From Caenorhabditis elegans (taxonomy: Eukaryota; Nematoda; Chromadorea; Rhabditida; Rhabditidae), in the NCBI RefSeq assembly GCF_000002985.6, contig NC_003284.9:16182001-16246000 (forward strand): 64,000 nucleotides of DNA, read 5' to 3'. The stretch's first letter is position 1; every line of letters begins with the position of its first letter. Shown here piece by piece: positions 46,966 through 54,826 of this stretch. The position numbers and the translations under genes were made by a program. Below the pieces are notes generated by a model, which saw only the letters and a program-made list of their open reading frames with translations, was not told where the DNA came from and ran no database searches.

Positions 46966-49900
46966 ATGGAGCAGTATATAAAAGAGCCGCTGTGAGTTTT
47001 GAAAAAATTGTTTTTTGTAGAATTTAAGTGAATTTTTATGTGGAAAAAAAGCACTACCGTAAAGTAAAACAATTTTAATTAAAAATTGCAAAAATATTTC
47101 ATACAGTTATCGATATGGTTACTTCCTTTCAAAATGTTTGAAAAAAAAGTAAACTTATCTCTTTTGCTGGTTTAGACTCAATTTTATGAGAACCCAACTA
47201 TAGCAAATTGCCGGTTTTTGACATTGGTGGGAAACAGAAAGGATGTTCTATTTTCTACGAGTTCAAATTTTTTAGATATGCACCTAGTATTCCTATTCAT
47301 ATATCGAAAGAGTTGAAACACCCAATATTGTTTTTAATATTGTTTTTAATATTGTTTTCAATATTAAAAAAAAGCTCAAATTCTGTCAAAACCTGGGAAT
47401 TTATCAAAACATTGACTCAAATGTTTGATTAAAAATTGTTGTAGAGGCGGGTGTTTTTTGTGATGTTTTTTTTAAACTTTTCCTGCTTAAAAAAATTTAC
47501 AAATAATTCAATTCAAAAAACTGTGAAAAAAATTTTTGTTAATGAGTTATGTAGACAAATTTTTTTTAAATTAGAAGGTCTTAATCTGTAAGTACTGAAT
47601 AAGAAGTTCAAACTATTTTTCAAAGGCACAAACGATTTCAGAGAAGACAATAGGTACGACCTTAACAAAAGATTCTTTCGATGCAGTTTCCCAAAGCATC
47701 GGAGAGGAGATGAGTGCGGTTACGTTAGTACTATCACGAACGTGAACACTCACTTTTCCCAGCACACGTGAGTGATAATAATTTCTATTTGAATCTCAAA
47801 TAAAAAACGTTTAAAATCAGGAAGGTCTATCAATATAAATGTCGTGCCTGTGAACGGAAAATGGTGCAAACGATGGAAATATATTGGCACTATGACCCCA
47901 GAGATGGCGGGAGATGCTCCTCGACGGAATTCGAGCTTCTCGTTATCAAACGAAAAGATGCGTATTTAGACCATCGCGCACGCAACTGTTACATTGATTC
48001 AGCGACAGATGACGACTATGATAGCTATAAGGAAAGAAAAAAGTTCGAAAATTCGGGAAAACGAAGGAGATGTACTCCATATGGAACTCCCAGTTTTGAA
48101 AATACATGCTCATCTCAACAGAAAACTACGGGAGTTCCGATCATGACTTTGTACCGATCTTCGGAGGCTGACGTTTGTGGTTACAGTCAAGTTCCTGCCA
48201 TGACTTATCCACCATTTGATCCAACGGATCGACCAAGGTCCAGAAACGGATCTCCTGTGGTGGGATCTTCTTTCAGTTCACGAAAAGAACCATCTACTCC
48301 CGGATCTGCGCCGGTACCTCATACACGACATGGTTCTTCAACCCCAGGGCACGGAAACCATCAGCTGCAGAATAATTATGGCGGTGCAAGTTCAAGGGGA
48401 GCTCAATCCAGAGGTTCACCACCAAGGGATCCTCGTCGTCATGCTAATGGTTCCTCTTCTCATCGACGCGATAAAACTGTGTCGGATGAACTTCAGCATG
48501 AAAATTCCCATACTCCAAGACAAGAAGAATCACAGTCAACTTTTGGAAGTTCGTTCAGGCCATCACAATATAGTTCGATTCTGAGAGATCCTCGTTTGTC
48601 TGGTAGAATCACATTAAATCAAGAGACTTTGAGAACTTCACTTAATGAAGTGTTCCCGCAACCACACACTCTTCCATTTGGAGGTTCATGCCCTCCGGGG
48701 CAAGAAAAATCACCATCAAATGGCCACAACCTTCTCCCACATCAACAAAAATTCGGAGGTTCCATCCCAGTGAGTTCAACTCTCAGTGATTCTCATACGT
48801 CAAACGGTGGATCTACTCCAAATCAAGATACTTCGCAAATCCTGGAGAAAGATCAGAATTCGGATAATTTGGTCCCAGTTTCAAGCATTCGTCGAGTGCC
48901 TTCGACAACCGGGTAAGTGCTTGATGTGCTTGGGATAGTGCCGGAATTTTTATTTCAAAATAATTCAGGCTTTTCATTTGATAAGTTTAATAAAACGGCG
49001 CAAAAGTTTATTTAATTCAATTATTCAATAGGTTTTTTATTCAAAAAAGTTTTTGGGATTTTTCGAGTGCCTTTTGGCACAACTAAAATAACTGTAGCAA
49101 ATCCTTAATCTCCATTAGAAAAATAATTTTAGTTTTCCTTTGTCTGCAAGAGTTTCCCAAAGTTTCTCAAACATTTTACAGAGTCTACAATATTCGAATT
49201 CAACGTCCACAAGACATGGTTCGAAGAGAAAGAAGTGCTGTGAGGTATCGTTCATCAAGTCGAGGAAGTCCATTGTATGAACCGGACGAGGAGGATCTTA
49301 ATAGTGAGTACCTTAAAAATTAGATTTTTTTAATTTAAAAAAACTCACAAAACTGCTCGAGTCGCTTTTGATACAGAAAACAAGTGTACATATAATTGAA
49401 AAAAACTATAACAGCAGAAAATTCTCAACTGCGTGGCGTGTTCGGAAAATCCCAGGGAAAATGCAAAAACTGCGACCCCAATCAATATCAGCCGCCGACA
49501 GCTTATGGATTCCGCTTGCCACTATATTTCCTTTGCAGTGTGCGGGGCAGCTCGCCACGCCCACAGCGAGTTAAACGAAGCGGGGCGCAGAAACCGTAAA
49601 ATGTCGGCGGCTGATATTGGTTGGGGTCCCGAATATTGCCTTCCCCCGTGATTTTCCGAAAAAAAAGGTTATTTGGGCGTACATACCACGCAGTTGTATT
49701 ATTTTGAGTGAAGAATATCTCCATCTTTCTGAACTGTAAATATACTCAGACAGGTGCGAGTCACGGCTAACCGACTCAAAATCACTGCTAATTAGCAAAA
49801 CGCCAAAAAACCAGAACTAATTAGCTTGAAACCATGGCTAATTAGCAAACCATTGCTAATTAGCAAAAAAGCAGTGCTAACTAGCAAAAAAGCAGTGCTA

Positions 49901-52900
49901 ATTAGCAATAATATCGATTTTTTGTTTTCTTTCATTTTATTTTATTATCCTTGCTTTTTATAAGTAATATATTTGTTTTTTTACATTTAATTCATAATTA
50001 ACGTGTTTCATTAAACTTGTTCGATTTTTTAAAACAATTTTTGTATTTTTCTAGGCAGATACACGTTTCGAATGGTGAAAAGTCCGAGAACGACGGTTCA
50101 AAGGATTCTGAATTCTGCTCCACGAAAGTTGCTGATCAGAAATGTGATTCCTGTTGGACGAGGTATTACTTATTTATCAAATCATTACATTTTGAACATT
50201 ATTCCTCAGGTCCAGCACATTTCGAGGAGTTCAATCAGCCAATAACAGGAATTCAGCGAATAACTTCCACTTCGAACTTGGTACCGGAGGTTGTAAGAGA
50301 AGGAGAAGAAGTAGAAGTGAACAGCTATTTGGACGACGAAGAAACTTCAGACTTTATAGACGAGAATGGTGATTTTCGCTACCCGGTTGACGAACTTGGC
50401 CATCAAGAAGTGGATCTAGACGTCGAAACCGACGAATCATTATATTTGAATTCTCAGCAAGAGGGATTTCTATGCGATGAACGGAGTCAAATGTTGCGAT
50501 CTCTGAGCAATCAAAATTTGAGAACTATTTTTTTCCTCATCAGTACTACGAACTCAAAAGCTGCAGTTATGAGATATCTCGATTTTCACAGTGTGCCACA
50601 GGAAAGGACTGTCAAGAAATTTTTACTGGAAGATTCACATCTGATGCGTGTCGAAGTATGCAATCTATGCGCCAGGAATCTTGAAATGTATGTTTTACAC
50701 GATATATCAACCCTAAAACATTTAATTTTAGTTGCGAATGTGGAAGTCAGCAAGAAAAGTGTGAACTCATTTACGGAAATCTGAAAAAGTGGCTGGAATT
50801 GATACTGAACTGTTATGGAAATATAATAATTCAAACAAAAAAATCAATGTTCGAAGAACTCCCAAGATCCTGTCCCATGAGTAAAGGAATCTTAAAACAA
50901 AAACTCCTTGACGAAATGGCAGACGATGAGATGTGGATGCACTTTGAGAGTAGTTTCGACGGAATTAAAGTCCATAAAAACGGAAAGTACTTATCCTTTG
51001 TGATCGGTTCTTGTTTCAATGATGGTTTTTTTCAGGCAACACATTTGGCCGTATTGTTTGCTGAATTTGGATCTTGAAGACGTCTACCGTGCATCTCCTC
51101 AGGCACTAATTCTCGCAGCTCTATTCATTGGTCCCAAGAGTCCGTCCACCAAGATTCACGATAGAATCACTCAATGGGTAATGATCCAAATGGATGAGAA
51201 CTTATTTTATTTGGATGGAATCGCTTGGAAAGCAGAAATTACGTGTGCAAATCATGACGACCCGGTAAGGACAAAAGTTTTCAAATTTTGCATATATATA
51301 TATATATAATTTTATTCAGGCACGACGAATGGTTTACAATCAGAGTGGACTGCGATCTTCGGGATCCTGCAATTATTGTCTGAATCAGGGTACAGAATGC
51401 AAGATTAATGATGACACCACAATACGTATGTGACTTGAATTTTCGAAAATAGGGAATTAAATTTTTTAAGTACGCGAGAATGTCATCGGACAGTGTCCTA
51501 CAACTATCAACGAAGGTCTTCGTCAACGCGGTCAAACTTCTCAATTTCACGAACTTGTTTTGCAAATGCACTTATGTCCCGTTGATTTATTTCATTGTTT
51601 TGAGGAAGGAATGTTTGGCAATATTAACACAGGTTACTGAAACCATCCAAATTTTATGTGTTGAGTTTGTTTTTCAGCACTTTTTACTAAAGGAAAATGG
51701 AGTACATTTTTTCCAAAGTCTCTGAATTTTGGCTCTATTCCTTCTCTACCATCTCGATTCCGGACTCTATCAGGAAAAATTTCTCAGTGTACTGGCGCCG
51801 AAAAAGCACTGGTAATGAGATAAACTCTTATCACTTCATTAAATCATTTGATTTTTCAGATTTTCGAGTCAATTGTTGTCGTGGCTGCATTCTCAGGTGA
51901 ACTTGGAGGTGTATCGTCATCCATTATTCTGAGCCTTCACGCAATCTATCGTCTTTCTGTGGAGCCACAGTCAATCACAGACGACACTCTTCATTTAAAA
52001 GTAAATTTTGATTTAATTTTAATAATTTGGAATCAAATTCTACAGATCGAACAAGTTTGCAACGCTGTTGAGGTTATAATTGTGAAAAAAGCACCGGAAA
52101 TGATAAATGGAATTAAATTACATGTAAGAAATCTAAAATCAGTGCTCAATATGTATTCTCTTTGCAGCAAATTTTGTATCATTTGGCAAGGATGACTCAG
52201 TTGTATGGAAGCTTATTTCCCATATCGACGCAGTGGTTCGAATATTTCTATCACACAATCCAGAGAACCCTGGTCCCTGAAATCTATAATGGCATTGGAA
52301 TGAGTATCATGAGAAAGTATGGAAATTTTTTTTTTAAATAGTTAATGAGAACACTTTTCAGGATGTCAGCTCTCCAGGAGATAAAAGCAGAAGTTGCATT
52401 TCGTCTACACTCAGATGTACAGTTTCCAACAAATGCAAACTTAAAAATGTGCTACGAACTTGGAATTCTAAGACGTCTTAAAAAAACTTCGATTGTTCCA
52501 GTACCTCCAGAATACGAGAAATACTGCTTAAATGGAGACGTTTTTCTAAACATCGTATACCACGACGGCATCAGATACTCCATTTATCCCAACAAAAATA
52601 CAGACGACTCCAATATTATGTTCTTCGAGGGAATTAGAGTTCGATTTGGAAAGATCGTTGGAATTCTGATCAATAAAGACAACACTCATCTTCGCTTCAT
52701 TCTGAAGAAGTACTGTAACACGAATGAGCATTTGCTGGACATTTCGAACAAAATGGCCCAAGAAGAAGTACCGCAGATGCATATTCAAAATTGGTTCGAT
52801 TCCGTTGCGAAATCAAACTTCGGAGGCCGGGTTATGCTAACAAACACGGTTCTTGTTCTTAATGCTGATTTGGTTCTTGGTAATGCTTCTGTAGTCGCCC

Positions 52901-54826
52901 GAAATGGAAAACTAATCGCACTTCCTTTTTCTCGTCGCATCAGCTTATTCTAATTTGAGTTACTTGAAACAATTATTACATCATAGAAAAAGCGAAAAAA
53001 AATTATCTTTCAGCTCTCATCAACGTCAATTATGTCTTTTCGACTTTGATCATCCAAGATGGAACTGTGAAATCCATCGTTAATGCTATGGCCAATCATT
53101 GGATCGATTATGTGAGGCATTGAGTACAGCTTATTCCAATCATTGTTTGAACTTTCAGCTCGTCCCCAGAAAAAATCAAGGAGCCTTCTCGATTAGCAAC
53201 AAATCGGAACATCTCACTGCCTTCCCAGGAGACCTGATGAACTGGCCTTCAGGTTTTATTAAAGATCGTTATGATTTCAACAATTTGGAACAATGTCTTT
53301 CAGGCCTTCTCTATAGCGCAATCAAACTGGAAGATGAGAACGTGGACACAAGCCTTTTGTCTACAGCCGTGAGCTCGCTGTTCACAAATCATCTGAAAAC
53401 TAGATTGTAAGTTTTTATTTATCTTGAATTTAGCTAGAAGTCCAGTAAACTTAGTAAATCAAAACTTCTTACCAATTGATGAATTTTTGCAGTGAACACG
53501 CGCGCAGTGCCTATCGTAAAAAGTACGGAGAGGATCCACCAAAAATCACGCTTGTGAAGCGTCCAATTGCCGATGCGGAGCAATTTCTCACTGAAGGCAA
53601 CGATGACGAGCTTAATGAACAACATCCATCAACTTCGAATGCAGACAACAATGACTAGTAAGAACCATACTCAATCCCCACCATATAAACAATTTTTTGT
53701 TTTGATTCCTGCAAAACTCCTCTGTGAAACGTTTTCTTTTCTTCTAATGCCTTCCTCATGTTTTCATTTGTTATTTCATTTGTTTTCCATAATAAATATT
53801 GTTTTTCTTTTTTTTTTAAATCAAAATGAATTAAACGGAGTTCGAAAAAGCGACAAATCACAACTAGCTAGCAAAATACCAGGACTATTTAGCAAAAGAA
53901 CCAGAGCTAATTAGCGAAAAACCAGAGCTAGCCAGGTTGACTCTATCCCTGGTCAAAAAGCTAATTAGCAGTGATTTTGAGTCGGTTAGCCGTGACTCGC
54001 ACCTGTCTGAGTAGTATTACAATTTACAAATTTGAACATTTTTTAATCTTTTTTTGTTGATTTTTTAAACGATTCCGTCAGTCTTTTTTGAGATTGGCTC
54101 GTTTTCTAAAAACGTAACTGCCAGCTTGGGTTTCTACCAATTTAACAGTAATTAGAAAATCCCGTCGCTTAAGACCTATCAATTTTTCAAATTATATTTC
54201 AGACATCAGATTTGCTCGTGAAAAATACCCAGTTTTGAGCCGAGCAACTTCAAAAGCATGTGGCGGCAATTCAAACCGCACGGCCTCCCTTATCGATCCA
54301 CCCCAGATCGGTTTATCGAAATCGAAGCCTACACTACCAGATACAGCTGAGACAGCTCAAGAAAGAACAGACGCTCGTAGATTGTTAGTGATGGGAAAGT
54401 ATATCAAAAAAAATCCTTCCCTCGCTTTAACATTAGGGCCTGAAGATGCGGCCAAACTTAATATAGACGTGGTAAGTTTGTGCAAAAAATTCGAAATACT
54501 GTACTTAAGTATCGCTGCACCCAATGCTAGCCCAAGTTTTAAGCATTTTAAAATTCATCCCCGTACAGTCCTTTTGTGCATATTTTAATTTTGCACATAA
54601 TTTTCTGGTTCTTTAGGAAGCTCTCAAGAAAAAACTTATTCCATCTACCTCTGGATCAATCGAGAAAAGACGCAGTCAATCTCGTTCCAGGAGCCGGGAT
54701 TCGAGACGACACAGTCGATCTCGTTCCGGGAGCCGGGGTTCACGACGACGCAGTGATCGCAGAGCAAGACACGAGAGAAGACATCGCGACGATGACAAAA
54801 GTGGTAGGGACAGACAAAGAAGATAA
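46966..54826 (+). CDS. Zinc-finger/RS-domain protein, host gene of the transposon
   Basis: Six exons: 46966-46991, 47642-47767, 47821-48912, 49182-49303, 54203-54471 and 54617-54826. They total 1845 bases with compatible phases and encode 614 aa. Residues 20-50 form a Cys/His cluster (C23, C34, H46, H50), followed by CRAC at 58-61, so the N-terminus probably binds zinc. Residues 80-450 are low-complexity Ser/Gly/Pro/Gln. The last exon is an RS domain ([20 protein letters not shown]) ending DRQRR, as in splicing or other nuclear RNA-related proteins. An acceptor TTTTTCAG ends at 46928 upstream of the ATG. The fourth intron (49304-54202) contains a whole transposon with its own gene. The 49303 to 54203 junction (A + AC) restores the frame exactly. 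I do not recognise the family; a nuclear role is inferred from the RS domain. Confidence 0.75.
49425..49695. mobile_element. MITE with AACTGCGTGG ends in the host intron
   Basis: The left end reads CTCAACTGCGTGGCGTGTTC and the right end ACATACCACGCAGTTG. Internal arms CAATATCAGCCGCCGAC and GTCGGCGGCTGATATTGGTT are inverted. It lies between exon 4 of the host gene and the CACTA-like transposon. No coding capacity. Confidence 0.8.
49745..49912. repeat. Left inverted terminus with subterminal repeats
   Basis: The terminal 52 bases are followed by about five copies of GCTAATTAGC or one-base variants (gctaactagc) spaced by A-rich linkers such as AAAAAAGCAGT. These are candidate transposase-binding sites. 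Confidence 0.85.
50072..53658 (+). CDS. Tnp2-like transposase, 14 exons, 950 aa
   Basis: Exons: 50072-50162, 50210-50687, 50732-50986, 51036-51264, 51320-51425, 51471-51632, 51678-51811, 51860-52000, 52046-52123, 52168-52316, 52362-52879, 53014-53111, 53159-53406 and 53493-53658. All phases agree and the total is 2853 bases. An acidic N-terminal region is followed by a Cys cluster ([15 protein letters not shown], about residues 182-196). The core has [20 protein letters not shown] (about 264-283), an Ala/Leu-rich [13 protein letters not shown], then HDDPARR (about 349-355) and [11 protein letters not shown]. The order DG...WP...L.G...P...D.PAR...C..C is that of the Tnp2/Transposase_21 group of CACTA elements; the aspartates are candidate DDE residues. 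AATAAA is at 53791. No internal stop is needed. The ATG at 50072 lies inside an exon whose acceptor is at 50054, so transcripts may start in the host gene. Confidence 0.8.
53791..53796 (+). terminator. Poly(A) signal of the transposase gene
   Basis: AATAAA lies 133 bases after the transposase stop and before the right terminal repeat, so the element carries its own 3' processing signal and could truncate host transcripts. Confidence 0.7.
53866..54011. repeat. Right inverted terminus with subterminal repeats
   Basis: This is the inverse of the left terminus for the outer 52 bases. Copies of CTAATTAGC-like motifs (gctagctagc, ctatttagc, gctaattagc) spaced by CAGAGCT/CAGGACT linkers precede it. 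Confidence 0.85.

Follow-up and report, generated by a model that had tools for sequence, protein, structure and literature searches.

A Mirage-group DNA transposon of Caenorhabditis elegans, sister family of MIRAGE1, with an open transposase gene and a second gene cut at its 5′ part

Mirage and CACTA/EnSpm Elements

Mirage transposons generate a target duplication of 2 bp. For the CACTA-Mirage-Chapaev clade as a whole, one source gives target duplications of 2 to 5 bp, a D-D-C(2)C-H(3-4)H-E transposase pattern and 5′-CA..TG-3′ termini "in most cases," and for CACTA/EnSpm elements CAC..GTG termini with a usual duplication of 3 bp (PMC12730594). The Pfam family DUF1258 corresponds to the Mirage group and is a relatively close homologue of Transposase_21 (PMC3985635). 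MIRAGE1 is reported to be derepressed in heterochromatin and piRNA mutants, its knock-down partly restoring fertility (PMC5395297), and to be among the families with most insertions in wild isolates (PMC5850821); as to activity, a comparison of two C. elegans lineages counts no CMC movements (0/17) between them (PMC12239620).

The locus described here lies in the window, that is, the whole 64-kb stretch of C. elegans DNA that was analyzed; the genome searched is that of one strain. Six 5.6-kb copies in the genome, which we take to be MIRAGE1, served for comparison; they are 99.8-100% alike across the first 4.5 kb. The best explanation of the locus (probability roughly 0.87) is a Mirage-group cut-and-paste transposon, sister to MIRAGE1, in which the transposase gene (ORF1) is intact and an internal deletion has removed exons 1-6 of a second gene (ORF2).

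The Element, Its Ends and Its Target Site

The transposon occupies positions 49745-54011 (4,267 bp, + strand) and is assigned to a sister family of MIRAGE1 on its ends, TA flanks, DUF1258 match and 71% DNA identity to MIRAGE1. The left terminal inverted repeat (49745..49796, +) equals the reversed right one (53960..54011, -) at 52/52 bases, and a TA dinucleotide adjoins each (49743..49744 and 54012..54013), identified as the two copies of a 2-bp target duplication by flank comparison and duplication count. The termini read CTCAG..CTGAG, as in MIRAGE1. Subterminal palindromic repeats GCTAATTAGC are found at both ends, six with at most one mismatch on the left (49787..49906) and two exact on the right (53906..53969). 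With one mismatch allowed, the motif occurs eight times in the 64-kb window, 8/8 within the element near its ends, against 1.31 expected, and this count was reached in 0/100 shuffles. The bare 10-mer CTCAGACAGG is uninformative as a family marker (46 genome occurrences vs 40 for the reversed control). The element sits in a host intron on the same strand (49304..54202); the exons on either side join in phase, and the frame stays open until a stop at 54824-54826. Pfam returned no match above cut-off for two pieces of the host gene. Inverted ends of about 52 bp with TA flanks, subterminal repeats and an intronic position had all been proposed in a preliminary description made from the sequence, and all three hold.

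A 2-bp duplication is present at 24/26 insertions, comprising 7/7 with window-type ends, 6/6 of MIRAGE1 and 11/13 related MITEs, whereas 15 off-register controls give 0-4/26; it extends to 3 bp in 1/24. This count leaves aside a long copy on chromosome III (24/27 with it), C5:18345136-18345493, which has one end, a partial copy of MIRAGE1 (C2:2266802) and four unmeasured matches (C6:9249355, C2:666842, C5:3478606 and C2:7036887). Because ten different dinucleotides are duplicated among the relatives, the TA flanks are not a target rule, as might have been supposed from this locus. Modest as it is, this tally of 2-bp duplications at many different dinucleotides can be checked and tells how such elements insert. 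The window element is a real, fairly recent cut-and-paste DNA transposon.

The Transposase Gene

ORF1 (50072..52953, +) encodes a transposase of 804 codons in 11 exons (50072-50162, 50210-50687, 50732-50986, 51036-51264, 51320-51425, 51471-51632, 51678-51811, 51860-52000, 52046-52123, 52168-52316 and 52362-52953), a model based on the exon plan and on 70% amino acid identity to ORF1 of MIRAGE1, the closest relative found among the matches listed. Both genes have 11 exons, of which 10 agree in length and exon 2 is 18 nt shorter in the window element; the stop of ORF1 (52951-52953) falls at the same place as the MIRAGE1 ORF1 end, and the two proteins share a C-terminal motif (last residue F/S). 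Ka/Ks between them is 0.11, with Ks saturated. Over the last 24 codons there are 10 silent differences, 6 identical codons and 8 amino acid changes, and the two shifted frames of the same stretch yield 0 and 1 silent codons. This excess of silent changes indicates that the tail is protein, not intron.

Three residues, D266 (50958..50960), D349 (51256..51258) and E583 (52240..52242), all on the + strand, are putative catalytic residues assigned by motif, the first by the Tnp2 pattern. The first cysteine of a C(2)C pair is C368 (51368..51370, +) and the first histidine of an H(4)H pair is H558 (52121..52123, +), following the motifs given in PMC12730594, and the protein fits the clade pattern in its D-D-C(2)C-H(4)H-E form. 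D266, D349, C368-x2-C, H558-x4-H and E583 are all present in the MIRAGE1 protein too. A solved-structure search with ORF1 gave no match at E up to 1. The product is probably an RNase-H-like DDE transposase that would recognize the 52-bp inverted ends and excise the element; its integration through a 2-bp stagger would then duplicate two bases of target, here TA.

The Second Gene and Its Junction

In MIRAGE1, ORF2 comprises 10 exons and 414 amino acids (modeled in one copy), and the six copies match residues 1 to 414 piecewise. The window element retains the last 4/10 exons (53014-53111, 53159-53252, 53304-53406 and 53493-53658; together 53014..53658, +), recognized by exon lengths and by protein match to MIRAGE1 ORF2, and ending in a TAG stop (53656-53658, +). 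The lengths of the first three (98, 94, and 103) equal those of MIRAGE1 exons 7-9. Only residues 243-395 are matched; the first 242/414 are absent. The junction (52954..53013, +) lacks about 1.32 kb of MIRAGE1, covering ORF2 exons 1-6 and the preceding gap, and 60 nt separate the ORF1 stop from ORF2 exon 7, vs 1,380 nt in MIRAGE1. The element had been called apparently intact, which is true of its ends and of ORF1 but not of ORF2.

A genome search with MIRAGE1 ORF2 gave 75 matches. When these were inspected for a window-type 5′ part, residues 1-242 were covered by the six MIRAGE1 copies and by a 36-residue piece with 67% identity at C5:19259753-19259860; C3:13338133-13338297, matched weakly (E 0.1), extends into them. 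The chromosome III copy is without the stretch around the ORF1-ORF2 junction and therefore cannot show whether the family once had a complete ORF2. As for the nature of the second protein, a solved-structure search with MIRAGE1 ORF2 found no match at E up to 1, and DUF2388, the sole Pfam match (E 0.09), lies below its own cut-off and was taken as noise.

The preliminary description had joined both parts into one stop-free frame of 14 exons and 950 codons. Such a frame does exist, with 15 exons and 933 codons, but as the main gene model it was rejected and corrected, because the comparison with MIRAGE1 divides it into two separate genes, ORF1 and the last four exons of ORF2. An intact autonomous element whose single transposase of 933-950 codons carries an ORF2 C-terminal part, fused by a splice from 52879 to 53014, is accordingly unlikely. 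The spliced frame is in phase and free of stops, all introns are GT-AG, a GT donor is present at 52880, and the ORF2 remnant is open for about 152 codons. However, the donor is missing at the same place in the compared MIRAGE1 copy (GGT in the window, GGA there), the fusion would lose the last 24 codons of ORF1, which evolve as protein, and the extra "exons" match a separate MIRAGE1 gene in length and sequence; the open remnant may just reflect a recent deletion, and phase agreement has a chance of 1 in 3. It is equally doubtful that a Mirage element with a single gene arose through the deletion, in which a 933-residue fusion would mobilize the family and its short relatives without ORF2. If the fusion were true, the window element and MIRAGE1 would form a natural pair on second-protein function in two-gene transposons.

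Under the preferred reading of two genes and an internal deletion, the ancestral plan would have been ORF1 followed in tandem by ORF2, the first six exons of ORF2 having presumably been lost here rather than gained by MIRAGE1. The window copy probably makes the transposase and not a full second protein. Since the first part of ORF2 is lost, the element is probably not autonomous, if ORF2 is needed; in that case it would depend on another copy, e.g., MIRAGE1. A sister family with a MIRAGE1-like transposase gene and most of ORF2 missing offers a natural comparison for the role of ORF2.

Placement Within the Clade

Against Pfam, the spliced protein matches DUF1258 as the sole family at E up to 10 (62 bits vs a cut-off of 33.1; E 5e-17 to 7e-17). 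The spliced protein is needed for this result: an exon-by-exon search of the genome for DUF1258 gave 18 matches, the window locus not among them. No Transposase_21 match appeared at E up to 10, a search in which HMMER filters drop most weak matches. The usual 5′-CA..TG-3′ clade ends are found neither at the window element nor at MIRAGE1, both of which begin CTCAG.

These results bear on the earlier naming of the element as Tnp2-type CACTA/EnSpm, of which a distant relationship of the transposase to Tnp2 survives and the superfamily does not, nor does the profile comparison then suggested recover Transposase_21. That this is a true CACTA/EnSpm element is very improbable: the clade motifs are shared, DUF1258 and Transposase_21 are homologous (PMC3985635) and some CACTA-type elements are reported to carry 2-bp duplications (PMC6004678), for which reason duplication length cannot exclude CACTA, but the ends are not CAC..GTG, the MIRAGE1 exon plan is shared and the protein is 70% identical to that of MIRAGE1.

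Related Copies in the Genome

The proposed search for other copies and non-autonomous derivatives found both. A second long copy on chromosome III is damaged, about 99% identical to the window element and nearly the same at its right end; at the left end AATAGACAGG replaces CTCAGACAGG, and it is flanked by TT on one side and TG on the other, without a duplication. Short relatives (MITEs) with near-identical ends, such as the 216-bp C2:5542758-5542973, are ready substrates. One complete ORF1 of the window family was found among the matches listed, which, together with the low Ka/Ks against MIRAGE1, could be read as a domesticated host gene resembling a transposon, but the retained perfect inverted ends and target duplication, the nearly identical chromosome III copy and the selection on ORF1 expected from the transposon's own past make this reading the least credible.

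Complete elements had been considered rare in nematodes. Against this, the C. elegans genome holds at least six full-length copies (5,617-5,625 bp) of the sister MIRAGE1, and PMC5395297 also speaks against rarity.

Comparison With Known Systems

CACTA/EnSpm elements (Tnp2, Transposase_21) resemble the window element in belonging to the wider clade and in the D-D-E, C(2)C and H(3-4)H motifs, but differ in the Transposase_21 match and in CACTA or CAC..GTG ends, neither of which the window element has; their usual 3-bp duplication contrasts with 2 bp here and is not decisive. Closer at the level of Pfam family are three DUF1258 loci on chromosome X (C6:16065437-16066868, C6:16516177-16517634 and C6:1695074-1696632). 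With 21-41% identity to the window or MIRAGE1 ORF1 over stretches of 37-95 residues, they appear by sequence to be a more distant lineage. MIRAGE1 itself shares the 11-exon transposase gene, 2-bp duplications and the last four exons of ORF2; its ends likewise begin CTCAG, with 79% identity across 53 bp. In contrast to the window element, it has two complete ORFs. The 71% DNA identity between them covers most of the transposase gene, and the window element is therefore treated as a separate family: a further member of the known Mirage kind and sister to MIRAGE1.

The element and its host intron

In the window, which spans C6:16182001-16246000, the transposon at 49745-54011 (4,267 bp) lies on the strand of its host gene; its inverted ends match at 52 of 52 bases and TA adjoins it on the left and right. 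A palindrome, GCTAATTAGC, occurs eight times with at most one mismatch, always near the ends of the element and nowhere else in the 64-kb window, a count reached in none of 100 shuffles. The host exons join in phase across 49304-54202 and the frame stays open until the stop at 54824-54826; the element is thus intronic and in the orientation of the host. The tail of the host protein is arginine-serine-rich by eye, and Pfam returned no match above the cut-off for two pieces of this protein. The intron also carries a fold-back element (49404-49720), immediately to the left of the transposon, whose arms at 49455-49548 and 49554-49647 are 70% complementary. It has at least 81 genome matches on both strands, in roughly 40 places or more, mostly at 69-84% identity (40 of 209 candidates scored).

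Transposase and superfamily

Splicing with GT-AG introns gives a frame of 933 codons in 15 exons without stops, and DUF1258 is the sole Pfam match (E ≤10) of the 933-aa protein, as it is of the shorter product of ORF1, the transposase gene (50072-52953). The available text of PMC3985635 equates DUF1258 with the Mirage group and places it fairly near Transposase_21, whose cluster also includes the CACTA transposases. The preliminary description of a CACTA/EnSpm-like element was therefore sound in calling a transposon and, at the level of the clade, a Tnp2-like transposase; its superfamily is replaced by Mirage. The catalytic acidic residues, picked by motif, are putative. This is a Mirage element of a known kind and may already have its own Repbase or Dfam entry.

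Relatives in the genome

Against 100,286,401 bases in 7 contigs, the 933-aa protein gives at least 67 matches (49 of 70 candidates scored). Those listed are the window element, another long copy, on contig 3 (chromosome III), seven copies of a family with 71% DNA identity, six of them full-length and one partial (C2:2267382-2268492), and three fragments (C5:13639106, C6:9249910, C2:666225). The full-length copies measure 5,617-5,625 bp and share 99.8-100% identity across their first 4.5 kb. We take this family to be MIRAGE1, because it agrees with the description in the accessible part of PMC5395297 (autonomous, two open reading frames, 69 annotations, full-length copies only six). One copy, C5:765783-771399 (loci L054 and L077), interrupts a short tandem repeat whose unit is about GGGGTACTGTA, and has GG at each flank. 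An exon-by-exon DUF1258 profile search of the genome gave 18 matches, among them the MIRAGE1 copies and, on the X contig, three loci that are less closely related; the window locus was not matched in this search, its DUF1258 match appearing only after splicing.

Two genes, one of them incomplete

Both MIRAGE1 genes were modelled in one copy, C4:701905-707528. Its ORF1 has 11 exons, 10 of which exactly match window exons 1 and 3-11 in length, and window exon 11 continues to the ORF1 stop at 52951-52953. Over the final 24 codons the two copies show 10 silent-only differences, 6 identical codons and 8 amino-acid changes, compared with 0 and 1 silent-only differences in the two other frames, so this stretch is conserved as protein. 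The 15-exon model fusing ORF1 to the remnant of ORF2 was rejected as the main gene model, since it splices out this very tail as an intron, and the earlier 950-codon model was likewise abandoned. ORF2 stands apart from ORF1 in MIRAGE1, with 10 exons of its own and a product of 414 aa. Exons 7-10 of this gene correspond to the last four of the window element, with equal lengths (98, 94, 103) in the first three, and similarity covers residues 243-395 only; from the ORF1 stop to ORF2 exon 7 there are 60 nt in the window and 1,380 nt in MIRAGE1. Most of ORF2 is missing from the window copy. ORF1 shares 70% identity with MIRAGE1 (Ka/Ks 0.11; Ks 1.69, saturated) and the ORF2 remnant 57% (Ka/Ks 0.22, 151 codons), both ratios spanning the whole time since the families split and so not being evidence of selection after the deletion.

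Age and activity

In 2,163 aligned columns, divided among four main pieces, the other long copy (C3:6626318-6631713; loci L049, L044 and L072) shows 14 mismatches to the window element, with 4 gap openings. Most of its transposase gene is gone, its left end is broken, and it contains two insertions, each of about 1.6 kb, at whose edges element bases are repeated in the manner of a target duplication (about 5 at the first, 3 at the second). Six shorter two-ended relatives show 0-2 differences per side from the 52-bp repeat; four of them (labelled C1b, C6, C5a and C3s) are 95.7-100% alike piecewise, the remaining two less so. The near-identical second copy and ends indicate that the family moved fairly recently. 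Among the matches listed, no member of this family other than the window copy has ORF1 in full. For MIRAGE1, raised RNA in several mutants (PMC5395297 among the reports) and many insertions among wild isolates (including PMC5850821) are described in the portions available. Against these stand the 0 of 17 movements between two lineages for the CACTA-Mirage-Chapaev class in the available text of PMC12239620, and PMC5850821 itself, which in the portion at hand names MIRAGE1 for its number of insertions, yet does not place it with the families highest in active reference counts.

Target duplications

Matching 2-bp flanks occur at 24 of the 26 two-ended insertions counted: 7/7 with window-type ends, 6/6 for MIRAGE1 and 11/13 in a third group, short elements whose ends are CTCAGTCAA (210 bp long in twelve cases, 284 bp in one). 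Fifteen off-register controls gave 0-4 of 26, and one of the 24 duplications reaches 3 bp. The long chromosome III copy, its left end damaged, was excluded and has no duplication at its flanks. One 210-bp MITE from the CTCAGTCAA group, at C2:1198400-1198690 (locus L082), is without a direct duplication; the sequences on its two sides are each other's inverted copy, a pattern such as a fold-back rearrangement would leave. TA was the expected target of Mirage elements. The duplicated dinucleotides (TA 5, TT 4, CA 3, AA 3, TC 2, AT 2, TG 2, GG 1, CG 1, GA 1) do not support this as a strict rule.

Comparison with related elements

In the available texts, duplications of 2 to 5 bp are given for the whole CACTA-Mirage-Chapaev clade (PMC12730594) and of 2 bp for some CACTA-type elements (PMC6004678), so we do not claim a 2-bp duplication as unreported; the literature searched, as far as available, held no direct statement of its length in Mirage. 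The CA..TG ends usual in the clade are absent from both the window element and MIRAGE1. The three X-contig DUF1258 loci (C6:16065437-16066868, C6:16516177-16517634, C6:1695074-1696632), also Mirage-like, are only distant kin of either. The accessible part of PMC4592977 describes in Sly1-1, a fungal element of the same clade, likewise two genes, a transposase and a gene of unknown function.
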